Below are positions 42,560 to 46,764 of a stretch of 46,809 bases of DNA, in pieces. The notes beneath the pieces are model-generated. The model did not search any database. It saw only the letters and a list, made by a program, of their open reading frames with translations, and had not been told where the DNA came from. A program made the translations under genes and the position numbers. The stretch spans positions 1 through 46,809 of the forward strand of contig JAAYPO010000107.1 of the NCBI GenBank assembly GCA_012519745.1. Reading direction: 5' to 3'. The first letter of the stretch is position 1. Every line of letters starts with the position of its first letter. Source of the stretch: Clostridiaceae bacterium. GTDB taxonomy: Bacteria; Bacillota; Clostridia; Acetivibrionales; DTU013.

Positions 42560-43300
42560 TCAGTTGAACAGCCTCTCAAGCTTCTCATAGCCGTCGCGGG
42601 TCAGCAGTGCATCCTTTTCGGTCCCCCTGAGCTTTACGATATATGTCCAGCGGCCGTATGGATACATTTTGCTGATATAGTTGATATTGATTATGTATGA
42701 CTTGTGACTCCTGAAAAAGATGCTTTTATCCAACTTCTCTTCAAGCTCGCTCAAACTATCCGAGGTGGTATGTCTGTCATGATGGGTATAGATGGCAGTA
42801 GCCCTGTTTTCACGCTGGATCAGTATGATCTCCTCCATATCCACAACACTGATGCCCTCTTTGTTTTTTATCATCAGCTTTTTATGTGTATTGGTGCTTT
42901 TGGGCTGCTCTTTCTCATACGGGTCCTGTTCAGCATCCTTTATGCTTTTGATCCTGTCCAGCGTTTGCTCGAGCCTGCGTATCCTGAAGGGCTTTACCAG
43001 ATAATCGAAAGCATATACCTCGAATGCCTCAGGCATGTATTCCTGATGTGCGGTAGCAAACACGATGATGGTCCTGGGTTCGATGTCCGCTATCCTTTTG
43101 GCACATTCAACACCGGTCATACCCGGCATTTCTACATCAAGGAATACGACCTCGGGACGAGAGGCCTCGAAAAGGCGGAGAGCGGCAGCGCCGTCCTCCG
43201 CTTCACCTACGATCGTGAAACCGCCTGATCTCTCAACGGCCTTTTTCAAAACAAGCCGCATTCCCATATCATCGTCAGCTATCATTACACTTTTTATCAA
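42560..43300 (-). CDS. LytTR-family response regulator
   Basis: A 246-residue regulator: receiver domain (about 1-120) with acidic pocket ADDD, phospho-acceptor Asp55 in VVFLDVEMPGMTG, and Lys near 105 in YLVKPF; then a LytTR DNA-binding domain (about 140-244) with ILIQRENRATAIYT, FFRSHKSYIININYI and the C-terminal strand. Such regulators (AgrA, VirR, LytR) bind direct repeats and usually act with a Spo0B/AgrC-type kinase, exactly the type encoded at 45674. The start is TTG 43300, three bases after the stop of the preceding gene, with GGTGG six bases upstream; ATG 43285 would truncate the first beta strand. It is the last gene of the kinase-nfeD-floA cluster. Confidence 0.93.
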   Translation of the reverse strand: MIKSVMIADDDMGMRLVLKKAVERSGGFTIVGEAEDGAAALRLFEASRPEVVFLDVEMPGMTGVECAKRIADIEPRTIIVFATAHQEYMPEAFEVYAFDYLVKPFRIRRLEQTLDRIKSIKDAEQDPYEKEQPKSTNTHKKLMIKNKEGISVVDMEEIILIQRENRATAIYTHHDRHTTSDSLSELEEKLDKSIFFRSHKSYIININYISKMYPYGRWTYIVKLRGTEKDALLTRDGYEKLERLFN

Positions 43301-43303
43301 TCG

Positions 43304-43843
43304 TTACCACCGGCCTCTTCTCATGCTTTTAGGTCTGCCGAGGAGCTCAGACATGATAAATCCCCTCATCAGGTTATCCCCTGAAAAATCCAACCTCAAT
43401 CCGCCAACTATACCACCGCCGGCTTCCTTCACCACAGCCTGGGTCTTTGCCTGCCCTCTGCCTTTTGTACTGCTGCCTGACGGCGGTGCCTGGTTACTTA
43501 CCGGCTTTCCATGACCGGCAGCCTGAGGCGGCGTATTACCGGCGGCAGGCTGGGGCATATTTGAACGCGGGGAAACTGTCGGAACCATAGCCGGGCGATC
43601 TGCTCCTGCAGGAGCTCTGCTGGTGGGAGCCTGTACCCTGTAGCCTCTGCTGCTGTCATTCCGTGGGACCGGAACCTGCTGCGGCCGCTGGACCCCTGGA
43701 TATGCAGGCCTCTGCGGTACCCTTACGACACCTCTTCTGTTTTCCTGCATCCTGACCTGGGGACGTATTATTCCGGCATCCGGTGAGAGACCAAACTTCA
43801 TTTCAGGGTTTGCCGCAAATGGATTGTTAAATGATTTTCCCAT
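43304..43843 (-). CDS. Pro/Gln/Arg-rich protein of the floA cluster, function unknown
   Basis: A 179-residue, low-complexity basic protein. The N-terminus (MGKSFNNPFAANPEMKFGLSPDAGIIRPQV) and the C-terminus (GGGIVGGLRLDFSGDNLMRGFIMSELLGRPKSMRRGRW) look conserved and partly structured; residues about 35-135 are a disordered stretch of Pro, Gln, Ala, Arg and Ser. There is no signal peptide or membrane helix, so it is cytoplasmic or membrane-associated through its basic surface. GAAGGGA precedes the ATG. It sits between floA (18-base gap) and the LytTR regulator (3-base gap), so it is almost surely cotranscribed and might be a client or scaffold of the FloA assembly (inference). I do not recognise the family. 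Confidence 0.75.
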   Translation of the reverse strand: MGKSFNNPFAANPEMKFGLSPDAGIIRPQVRMQENRRGVVRVPQRPAYPGVQRPQQVPVPRNDSSRGYRVQAPTSRAPAGADRPAMVPTVSPRSNMPQPAAGNTPPQAAGHGKPVSNQAPPSGSSTKGRGQAKTQAVVKEAGGGIVGGLRLDFSGDNLMRGFIMSELLGRPKSMRRGRW

Positions 43844-43861
43844 TCCAATATCCCTTCCGTC

Positions 43862-44854
43862 CTATTTCTCGCCTATTTTATCGGTTCCTTCGGTTTTATT
43901 GAGCTTGGAGATGGACTCTCTCATATTTGTATCCGAAGCGATATTCTGCATATTGTAGTAATCCATGACACCCATATTCCCGTTTTTGAGAGCGCTTGCC
44001 ATTGCCTTGGGCACCTCTGCCTCGGCTTCCACGACTCTTGCCCTCATTTCCTGGACCAGCGCCTTCATTTCCTGCTCCTTTGCAACTGCCATAGCGCGCC
44101 TTTCTTCAGCCTTCGCCTGTGCTATGTTCTTGTCTGCCTCGGCTTGGAAAGTCTGTAGCTGGGCACCTATGTTCCTGCCTACATCCACATCCGCGATATC
44201 GATGGAAAGTATTTCAAAAGCAGTTCCTGCATCAAGACCTTTGTTCAATACCGTCTGAGAAATCAGATCCGGGTTCTCCAGCACATCCTTATGCGATGTG
44301 GAACTTCCGACAGTTGTGACTATGCCTTCACCGACCCTTGCAATAATAGTCGCTTCACCTGCGCCTCCTATCAGTCTGTCAAGGTTTGTCCTGACTGTCA
44401 CCCTTGCCTTGACAAGCAGCTCTATACCGTCTTTTGCAACAGCTGATATGTTCGGTGTCTCTATCACCTTGGGATTGACACTCATCTTTACTGCATCGAG
44501 GACATCCCTTCCTGCCAGATCGATGGCGGCAGCCCTTACGAACTGCAGATCCATGTTGGCTCTGTACGCGGCGATAAGGGCGTTGACCACCTTATCCACG
44601 TTTCCTCCCGCCAGATAGTGCGCTTCCAGCTGGTTGACATTGATGTCAAGTCCTGCTTTTCTCGCCTTGATCAACGGCAGTATGATCCTGCTTGGGATGA
44701 CCCTCCTTAGCCTCATTCCTATAAGCGTAAATATCCCGACACGCACTCCGGCTGCAAAGGCCGATATCCACAGCCCGACAGGAATGAAATTAAAAAACAG
44801 TATGAAAAAGATAACTATTACAAAAATGATCCCCACTGTTACTAAAACTTCCAT
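43862..44854 (-). CDS. floA: Flotillin-like protein FloA
   Basis: A 330-residue membrane scaffold of functional membrane microdomains. Residues about 2-27 form the membrane-inserting hairpin ([27 protein letters not shown]). The SPFH-like domain starts near [33 protein letters not shown] and includes [17 protein letters not shown] and GVEIL-type [19 protein letters not shown] coiled-coil EA-rich stretch ([42 protein letters not shown]) drives oligomerisation. ATG 44854 has AAAGGAG upstream; longer readings lack a site. NfeD lies immediately upstream, the classical pairing. Confidence 0.96.
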
Positions 44855-45016
44855 ACAGATCCTACTCCTTTCAAATTTTATTAAGGCCCTATCTATCGCA
44901 CCTGCCAAATGTCTTGATCGGCAGGTATTCGATATCATTATTTGAACTTGATGACTTTATTATGAAGTTCTGCACTATCCCTGCATATAACGTATCTGTT
45001 CAGTCATGATACGCTG

Positions 45017-45520
45017 TCAGGACAGCTTTTGTTTCACGACGATCCTGAGACCTTCGATCCTATCGATTATCACAGCAGTTCCTTTTTTAATGAACTCCCC
45101 TTCAGAGACAACATCCAGTCTGACTCCGTTGAAATCCGCCGTACCGGACGGCCGGAGCGCAGTAATGGCAATGCCCTCACTTCCGATGAAGTAGTTCAGA
45201 TCGTCAACCCCTGAAAACTTTATATCGTCATCGATAGAGTCGTTCAAAACAAGATGCTTTGACAGACGTCCCTTTGACGCAGATTGAAGTATCAGGGTGA
45301 GAGCCGCTCCAAGTATCGCCAGGATGATAACGATAAGAATCAGAGCCTGCAGCAGTGTCTGAGCGTAGAGTACGATACCGGCCACAAGCAGTATCGCTCC
45401 TATAATGCCCGGCGCTCCAAAGCCGGGATTGAACATTTCAATAATAACAAATACAAGTCCGCCAATTATCAAAAGCAGCGGTATCCAATTGATTCCTGAA
45501 AATACTGTCACTATATCCAT
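45017..45520 (-). CDS. nfeD: NfeD-family membrane protein
   Basis: A 167-residue short-form NfeD: three to four helices (NWIPLLLIIGGLVFVIIEMF, PGFGAPGIIGAILLVAGIVLY, LLQALILIVIILAILGAALTLIL) and a C-terminal OB-fold domain (about 105-165; GSEGIAITALRPSGTADFNGVRLDVVSEGEFIKKGTAVIIDRIEGLRIVVK). The serine protease domain of long NfeD proteins is missing, which is usual for the form beside floA. It supports flotillin function at the membrane. GGGAGGTG before 45520 fixes the start. A 162-base gap to floA and 153 bases from the kinase suggest one operon or closely spaced units. Confidence 0.93.
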   Translation of the reverse strand: MDIVTVFSGINWIPLLLIIGGLVFVIIEMFNPGFGAPGIIGAILLVAGIVLYAQTLLQALILIVIILAILGAALTLILQSASKGRLSKHLVLNDSIDDDIKFSGVDDLNYFIGSEGIAITALRPSGTADFNGVRLDVVSEGEFIKKGTAVIIDRIEGLRIVVKQKLS

Positions 45521-45546
45521 AAATACACCTCCCGTAAAACAAATGA

Positions 45547-45580
45547 CTATTATCTGCAAGTATATTCTATTACGACTGTC
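45547..45580 (-). promoter_or_regulatory. Possible nfeD promoter
   Basis: A TATACT -10-like hexamer on the minus strand is preceded by TTCATG at 18 bases, about 35 bases before the nfeD start. If real, the nfeD-floA part can be expressed without the kinase. Confidence 0.35.
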
Positions 45581-45673
45581 ATCATGAATAAATACATACT
45601 CTACGAACAATACATGTTGGTTGCTGATTTGTCACAAATGCTGATTGTTGGCTCGAAAGGTCAATATGCGGGA

Positions 45674-46531
45674 TTACCTGGGGATACTGCCCGCAAAAAT
45701 AGTCCGGCCTTCTTCCGTGGATACTCCTATACTGCCGCCGGCCCTCTTCATTATCTCACTGCAGATCGCAAGTCCCATTCCCTCACCCTTATCGCCCTTC
45801 GTTGTAAAACCCGGCTCAAATATCCTGCCTGCCAGCTTTTCTGAAATAGGATCCCCACTGTTCATGATTTTGAAATAATAATTATTCAAGTCCTCATAGA
45901 GCTCGATCCTGATCGATTTGCCGTCCTTACCCTCAATAACCGCATAAATCGCATTGTCTATCAGGTTTCCAAGCACTCTGCACATCTCCCAGGACGGAAT
46001 AGTCAAGTTCTTCAGCTGTGTCCTGACGTCAAGCTCCATACTGATGCCCTGCTTTTCACATGCCATGAGCTTCGCTTGAAGAAGTGCATTGACAGCTGCA
46101 ACGGAGGTCTTCATTATTTTGCTTACACGCTGGATATCGCCGTACACTTTTTCTATATACTCATCTGCAGCCTTATACTCATCCATCTCGATCAGTGAGT
46201 GTACCACCTGCAGGTGATTCATGAAATCATGCCTCTGAGCACGCAGCACAGCGTTGAGCCTCTCAAGCCTGTCCAGTGTGTCCTCCAGCAGCCTGATCTC
46301 GTGGCCGGAGCGGATAAAGCCGGCCTTGTACTTGAAAGCAGTTATGCTGTTGATTATCACTGCCCCAGCGATAACAGCAAGAAGGAGTATTATCCATGGG
46401 TCTGAAAGAAGCTCAGCTCCCATACCCATATCAACAATGTAGAACAAAACCGCAGCGATCAGTGCGGCCTGCACAAGGTTGATCGATACTATCAGAAGTG
46501 CAGTCATACCGGGATCAAATCTTCTTTTCAC
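45674..46531 (-). CDS. Spo0B/AgrC-type sensor histidine kinase
   Basis: A 285-residue kinase. Two hydrophobic helices (about 11-34 and 46-66) form a minimal membrane sensor with almost no external loop. The H-box is of Spo0B type: LRAQRHDFMNHLQVVHSLIEM with His101. The ATPase domain (GHKL, about 180-285) has LGNLIDNAIYAV (N box), FEPGFTTKGDKGEGMGLAI (F/G boxes). Such kinases pair with LytTR regulators, as at 42560. GTG 46531 has GGGGAGGG about ten bases upstream and is chosen over longer readings. With only short loops it probably senses something in or at the membrane; the nfeD/floA genes directly downstream fit that idea (inference). Confidence 0.9.
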   Translation of the reverse strand: MKRRFDPGMTALLIVSINLVQAALIAAVLFYIVDMGMGAELLSDPWIILLLAVIAGAVIINSITAFKYKAGFIRSGHEIRLLEDTLDRLERLNAVLRAQRHDFMNHLQVVHSLIEMDEYKAADEYIEKVYGDIQRVSKIMKTSVAAVNALLQAKLMACEKQGISMELDVRTQLKNLTIPSWEMCRVLGNLIDNAIYAVIEGKDGKSIRIELYEDLNNYYFKIMNSGDPISEKLAGRIFEPGFTTKGDKGEGMGLAICSEIMKRAGGSIGVSTEEGRTIFAGSIPR

Positions 46532-46563
46532 AGATAATATCCCTCCCCGACAATACATTATTA

Positions 46564-46592
46564 AGTATATCCTGTTTGACTGATACATTCAA
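46564..46592 (-). promoter_or_regulatory. Promoter of the kinase-nfeD-floA cluster
   Basis: TTGAAT (46587-46592) and TATACT (46564-46569) are 17 bases apart on the minus strand, about 30 bases before the kinase GTG. An inverted repeat lies directly upstream. Confidence 0.7.
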
Positions 46593-46653: not shown

Positions 46654-46689
46654 TACTAAAAAAACCACCTTTTGATAAAAGGTGGTTTT
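46654..46689 (-). terminator. Terminator after tRNA-Val
   Basis: AAAACCACCTTTT (46661-46673) and AAAAGGTGGTTTT (46677-46689) form a perfect 13-base stem with a three-base loop, followed by T-run on the minus strand. Confidence 0.85.
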
Positions 46690-46764
46690 GGTGGGCACTA
46701 TAGGGCTCGAACCTATGACCCCCTGCTTGTAAGGCAGGTGCTCTCCCAGCTGAGCTAAGCGCCC
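46689..46764 (-). tRNA. tRNA-Val (anticodon TAC)
   Basis: The minus strand folds as a standard cloverleaf: acceptor GGGCGCT/AGTGCCC, D-arm GCTC-AGCTGGGA-GAGC, anticodon arm CCTGC-CTTACAA-GCAGG with anticodon TAC, T-arm ATAGG-TTCGAGC-CCTAT, discriminator A and encoded CCA (46689-46691). It reads GUA/GUG valine codons. Confidence 0.97.

Follow-up and report, generated by a model that had tools for sequence, protein, structure and literature searches.

A conserved C-terminal tail encoded with floA suggests a candidate third component of the NfeD-FloA flotillin system

What is the small protein encoded directly behind the flotillin gene floA in a Clostridiaceae bacterium, and does it work with FloA? 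The stretch of DNA that we analysed, hereafter the window, covers 46,809 nucleotides (nt) of contig JAAYPO010000107.1 (assembly GCA_012519745.1). A first-pass annotation had described the open reading frame (ORF) in question as a protein without a recognisable domain, with conserved-looking ends and a disordered core, and had proposed that it could be a new FloA-associated factor. We found that its C-terminus belongs to a tail family that co-occurs with floA in samples of three phyla, which upholds the proposal at the genomic level; the physical interaction is one that we infer. It is reasonably probable, in our view, that the NfeD-FloA flotillin system has in this partner protein a dedicated and so far undescribed third component. 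The argument turns on the following features of the window.

43304..43843, minus strand: FloA-partner ORF, 179 amino acids plus stop, with an ATG start and a single match within its own genome
43769..43843, minus strand: N-terminal stretch, common to five genus members (alignment)
43406..43768, minus strand: disordered linker, residues 26-146, rich in P, Q, R, G, S and A, unconserved (composition, alignment, AlphaFold)
43307..43405, minus strand: conserved C-terminal tail, residues 147-179 (GGLRLDFSGDNLMRGFIMSELLGRPKSMRRGRW), with a helix, PK and RR in that order (alignments and predicted helix)
43862..44854, minus strand: floA, its start set at 44854 (PF12127, 1.5e-164)
43907..43978, minus strand: FloA C-terminal segment past the coiled coil (GVMDYYN..N...DT.MR.SI), reached by the Pfam match in long FloA and not in short FloA

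The 179-residue ORF is real and lies on the minus strand, which had been left unstated. Reading of the sequence places a ribosome-binding-like GGAAGGG 8 nt 5' of its ATG, and the ATG itself 18 nt past the floA stop. As annotated, the protein has no recognisable domain: no family in Pfam-A or NCBIfam (0 in all) matched it above the curated cut-off, and nine homologues run against family libraries gave scattered sub-cut-off matches only. The disorder of the middle was likewise borne out, since P, Q, R, G, S and A make up 68% of residues 26-145 and the AlphaFold block means for residues 21-140 lie at 50-65; the net charge of the whole protein is +18. The C-terminus, thought to be structured, contains the one predicted helix, at residues 155-167 (block means 87 and 82).

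Alignment places the conservation in the last ~26 residues. The basic, disordered core had been taken as the informative part; it is unconserved, the signal coming from the C-terminal tail instead. Of the two ends considered conserved, only the C-terminal one is so widely, the N-terminal pattern M.K...NPF......K.GLSPD being confined to five members of the window's genus. A search with the whole protein matched 20/60 genomes (its own and relatives), beyond the genus mainly via the C-terminal part. Within GFIMSELLGRP, all 20 aligned tails share the same G, E and P; when the set was widened to 86 tails, 80 retained the G, 85 the E and 86 the P. A profile built from the 20 aligned tails matched 34/58 genomes of the window's order and 112/299 genomes of its phylum. 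When species genomes were scanned with it, 34 loci emerged, including Poribacteria, an Ignavibacteria record and a Planctomycetaceae record; together with Bacillota, these are the groups in which we saw the tail. In Listeria innocua, a weaker tail protein follows floA. The window protein has the hallmarks of the family, namely a C-terminal helix, the near-invariant G/E/P and K/R residues at or near the end, and its ORF takes the common, though not universal, form of a same-strand gene directly downstream of floA. The tail profile found no match among PDB sequences, and a literature search on flotillin, FloA, NfeD and YqfB, from whose reach subscription papers and preprints mostly fell out, returned no description of such a tail. 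We conclude that the tails are a real and widespread family, undescribed as far as our literature search reached. Their conservation exceeds chance, as judged by the co-occurrence with floA and by the antisense control, both given below.

The other end of the protein separates the window's order from the remaining lineages. The place of the window protein's N-terminal stretch is taken in most homologues outside the order by a membrane-helix-like one (99/112 outside vs 0/30 inside, by a simple hydropathy cut of 1.6 with two order members just below it, at 1.43 and 1.49, a few sequences truncated N-terminally and possible frame misreadings in some GC-rich cases). The window protein, with a score of 0.22, falls below the cut. 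From its sequence, it is an untethered variant of the family, without the common N-terminal membrane-helix-like stretch. One tail protein of another locus (L111) has a zinc-ribbon-like stretch inside its linker, below the Pfam cut-off.

Does the tail track floA? FloA, called by PF12127 in the same 299-genome draw from the window's phylum, was present in 205, among them 112/112 tail-positive genomes. None of the 94 floA-less genomes had a tail match (Fisher p 4e-25; this and all our other co-occurrence p-values treat genomes as independent, and kinship makes them overstated). The 113 tail matches in these 112 genomes comprise 97 with a listed floA position and 16 without. Directly downstream of floA and on the same strand lie 95/97 of the placed matches, with 224-778 nt between FloA match and tail; the other two are a match in G145, in which a second floA copy does adjoin (L070), and a weak second match in G061. 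Five of the 16 were examined as loci: FloA adjoins in four (L053, L072, L073, L074), and the fifth (L068), which runs into a contig end, does not show FloA. Of the 34 loci from the scan of species genomes, which was independent of this draw, 30 have FloA in their stretch. Among the four without it, L086 is a gene cut by a contig end, whose upstream half follows floA on another contig; the other three are L102, L103 and L109. A further draw of 81 genomes (40 with the tail) repeats the first sample by identical contig positions and was left out of the counts. The first-pass annotation had the gene locked between floA and a regulator, and had asked whether profile hits always neighbour floA. The floA side holds in nearly all placed cases of this phylum and less often in the other two phylum samples, and a matching regulator adjoins only in part of the order.

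In the phylum of the Ignavibacteria record (148 genomes), 25 genomes have the tail and 38 have FloA, and 25/25 tail genomes have FloA. Here 8/25 tail genes adjoin floA and 17 do not, five of these being >200 kb away on the same contig and the others on a different contig. The unlinked matches with E<1e-4 all come from genomes that carry floA (10/10, p 5e-7). Because unlinked tail genomes also carry floA, linkage alone does not explain the pairing. In the phylum of the Planctomycetaceae record (119 genomes), 36/37 genomes with a tail match carry floA (p 5e-4), and the match adjoins floA in 29/37 and lies away from it in 8/37. Several tail matches in both non-Bacillota samples are weak and some possibly arose by chance. 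In a Selenomonadaceae genome (L103), the tail gene stands beside an apparent gyrB (named by eye), and floA is elsewhere in the genome. Homologues away from floA, which had been named in advance as speaking against an association, thus do exist (17/25, 8/37 and the Selenomonadaceae genome), and the genomes with such distant homologues still carry floA except G659; G357 also has a tail with no floA found. Co-occurrence despite separate loci points to a functional link, and we regard a functional coupling of the partner protein to FloA as very probable on this genomic evidence.

To which part of FloA might the tail relate? In the sample of the Planctomycetaceae record's phylum, we classed FloA copies as long (profile end at least 305) or short (end 285-295), using 98/120 FloA rows. 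The tail gene follows 29/84 long copies vs 0/12 short ones. The stretches behind all 12 short copies and behind 28/55 long copies without an earlier match were then fetched, and the profiles, at E<0.5, placed the tail after 16/28 long vs 0/12 short copies (p 0.0009). What the short copies lack is the segment past the coiled coil, GVMDYYN..N...DT.MR.SI in the window. This suggests that tail and segment may work together. Among the loci, mostly found via the tail, 7 FloA matches stop before the C-terminus. No tail gene adjoins six of them, which are four short copies of Poribacteria and two split copies.

Tandem floA genes followed by two tail genes occur in two Poribacteria loci (L108, L114), the first floA copy being of the short form; L114 has two nfeD matches besides. 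In genomes of the Planctomycetaceae record's phylum, for example G640, G661, G616 and G679, a second, C-terminally short FloA is encoded elsewhere, with no tail gene adjoining.

Besides the kinship of the sampled genomes, several observations weigh against a dedicated FloA partner. In L216, the seventh of the loci whose FloA match stops early, FloA is matched in pieces short of its C-terminus and has the tail gene next door. G357 (the record of L102; 1.8 Mb) has a tail and no floA that we could find, G659 has a tail match in a gene within which the contig ends, and no floA, and G359 (the record of L109) has a tail with only a short FloA found. Parabacteroides has no tail gene beside floA. Mutual information over 85 FloA-tail pairs gave scattered top pairs and no hot spot. 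The AlphaFold tail helix is equally confident in the ORF alone (blocks 87/82) and in the FloA read-through chain (87/69). Modelling FloA and the ORF as one chain, judged by block confidence only, accordingly lends docking no support, because the ORF alone yields the same helix confidence; the prediction together with FloA proposed by the first-pass annotation gave, in this single-chain form, no sign of docking. Foldseek of the FloA-ORF model returned mainly SPFH-domain and vault-type folds, which stem from FloA and are uninformative on the tail. Finally, many floA genomes have no tail-profile match: 93/205 in the first sample (52 inspected), 13/38 in the second and 57/93 in the third.

The inspection of the first sample covered what follows floA in 52 of its 93 profile-negative genomes. 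A broader profile found a weaker tail after floA in 34/52 at E<=0.1 and in 30/52 at E<=0.01; as a control, it matched 34/482 sense ORFs vs 0/627 antisense ORFs of the same stretches. In 17 of the 18 remaining stretches, the ORF after floA closes, by eye and without a score, with a degenerate tail; the eighteenth breaks off at a contig end. Compared with the family profile, 16 of these tails gave a probability of 96.9 and an E-value of 1.8e-10 (for a single comparison).

The surroundings of the ORF in the window add three protein genes.

45674..46588, minus strand: SpoOB-type sensor histidine kinase, first protein gene in the same-strand cluster (domain match)
45017..45610, minus strand: nfeD (PF01957 4.3e-15, PF24961 2.2e-8)
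42560..43300, minus strand: LytTR response regulator, starting 3 nt past the partner stop if TTG is the start (domain match)

The order on the minus strand is SpoOB-type kinase, nfeD, floA, partner ORF and LytTR regulator, so that kinase and regulator bracket nfeD-floA-ORF on one strand (42560-46588), as they also do in part of the order. A terminator-like hairpin at 42576-42548, at the end of the regulator gene, is a weak sign, with 3 such hairpins in the region vs 3.6 expected by chance. A tRNA-Val gene (anticodon TAC; minus strand, 46689-46764) adjoins the cluster, and an Rfam scan at gathering scores gave a tRNA as its sole match. In the window, floA and the partner ORF share a frame, with TAG and six codons between them. 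A natural FloA-ORF fusion by stop read-through was considered and taken as coincidence, because only 5/30 listed loci have a long in-frame segment past the floA stop (L090, L094, L105, L113, L114).

This arrangement could make the partner an adaptor of the flanking two-component system rather than of FloA, given that kinase and regulator flank the trio on the same strand in the window and in part of the order. We hold this to be very unlikely: outside that group FloA is present and no matching regulator is, save for weak matches of 28-29% identity (the stretches being mostly too short to show a kinase), and the co-occurrence tracks floA. Even less credible to us is a mere operon passenger, conserved in position with no functional coupling to FloA. 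The gene does usually adjoin floA in the window's phylum, where linkage alone could yield much of the co-occurrence, but 17/17 non-adjacent matches in the second phylum sample co-occur with floA, 10/10 at E<1e-4, and the tail is conserved where the linker is not.

A more serious rival, which we nevertheless consider rather unlikely, grants that the partner works with FloA and has its tail bind the membrane surface or another factor (e.g. a membrane protease such as FtsH, or a client), FloA being merely co-located. Indeed, the tail consists of a short hydrophobic helix with basic residues behind it, and no FloA docking is seen with AlphaFold. Yet a lipid-binding helix would need no near-invariant G/E/P at fixed spacing, which the 86 tails retain 80, 85 and 86 times, respectively, and the helix moment is low (0.25); moreover, the absence of the tail beside FloA copies without the C-terminal segment points to FloA itself. 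On balance, we favour a direct binding of the tail to FloA.

Taking the partner protein as a third component of the NfeD-FloA system, we infer where it docks, how it is oriented and what it does to FloA as follows. The C-terminal helix-PK-RR tail would do the work, tethered by the disordered linker. A membrane helix at the N-terminus may, in most lineages, hold the partner next to FloA while its tail lies in the cytoplasm. There the tail would dock onto assembled FloA, the likeliest site being the FloA C-terminal segment or its vicinity, and help to position, cap or load the cage. In the window's order, loss of the membrane helix would have left a peripheral partner held by its tail. A fuller version, which we offer only tentatively and think somewhat doubtful, makes the protein a third FloA subunit, a membrane-tethered disordered line whose tail binds the FloA C-terminal segment and controls closing, loading or placing of the cage. 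The partner would then separate two FloA classes, long ones with it and short ones without, and in the window's order, off the membrane and within a two-component operon, it could report the state of FloA to the kinase.

Bacterial flotillins have so far been described with one fixed partner, NfeD, and the placement and regulation of FloA are disputed. The tail family provides an easily mutated handle on these matters, a 25-residue peptide versus a C-terminal FloA segment, and makes a searchable family of the 'hypothetical protein' whose gene adjoins floA in many genomes.

How does the window protein compare with known systems? NfeD (PF01957), the known partner, acts beside FloA, and the accessible text of PMC11222466 speaks of FloA and NfeD. 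Like NfeD, the window protein is encoded in the floA cassette; unlike it, it has no match to the PF01957 C-terminal domain and is predicted to be mostly disordered. In Thermus thermophilus, YP_144313 is a third gene beside SPFH5 (FloA) and NfeD, as is the window ORF, a likeness of position alone; the part of PMC2636767 available to us lists this third gene of the SPFH5 operon as of unknown function and describes no motif or family there. In B. subtilis, the yqeZ-yqfA/floA-yqfB operon is, according to the accessible portions of PMC3498285 and PMC8144471, controlled by sigma-W and tied to sublancin resistance, with the order yqeZ-yqfA-yqfB-yqfC-yqfD (PMC3498285), and YqfB is listed, in what we could access of PMC12563154, among conserved proteins of unknown function. 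YqfB of this sigma-W regulon occupies an operon slot like that of the Paenibacillus tail gene, which is X in floA-X-yqfC-yqfD, and is again likened by position alone. The window differs from this arrangement in that its partner ORF is followed by the LytTR regulator instead of yqfC-yqfD.
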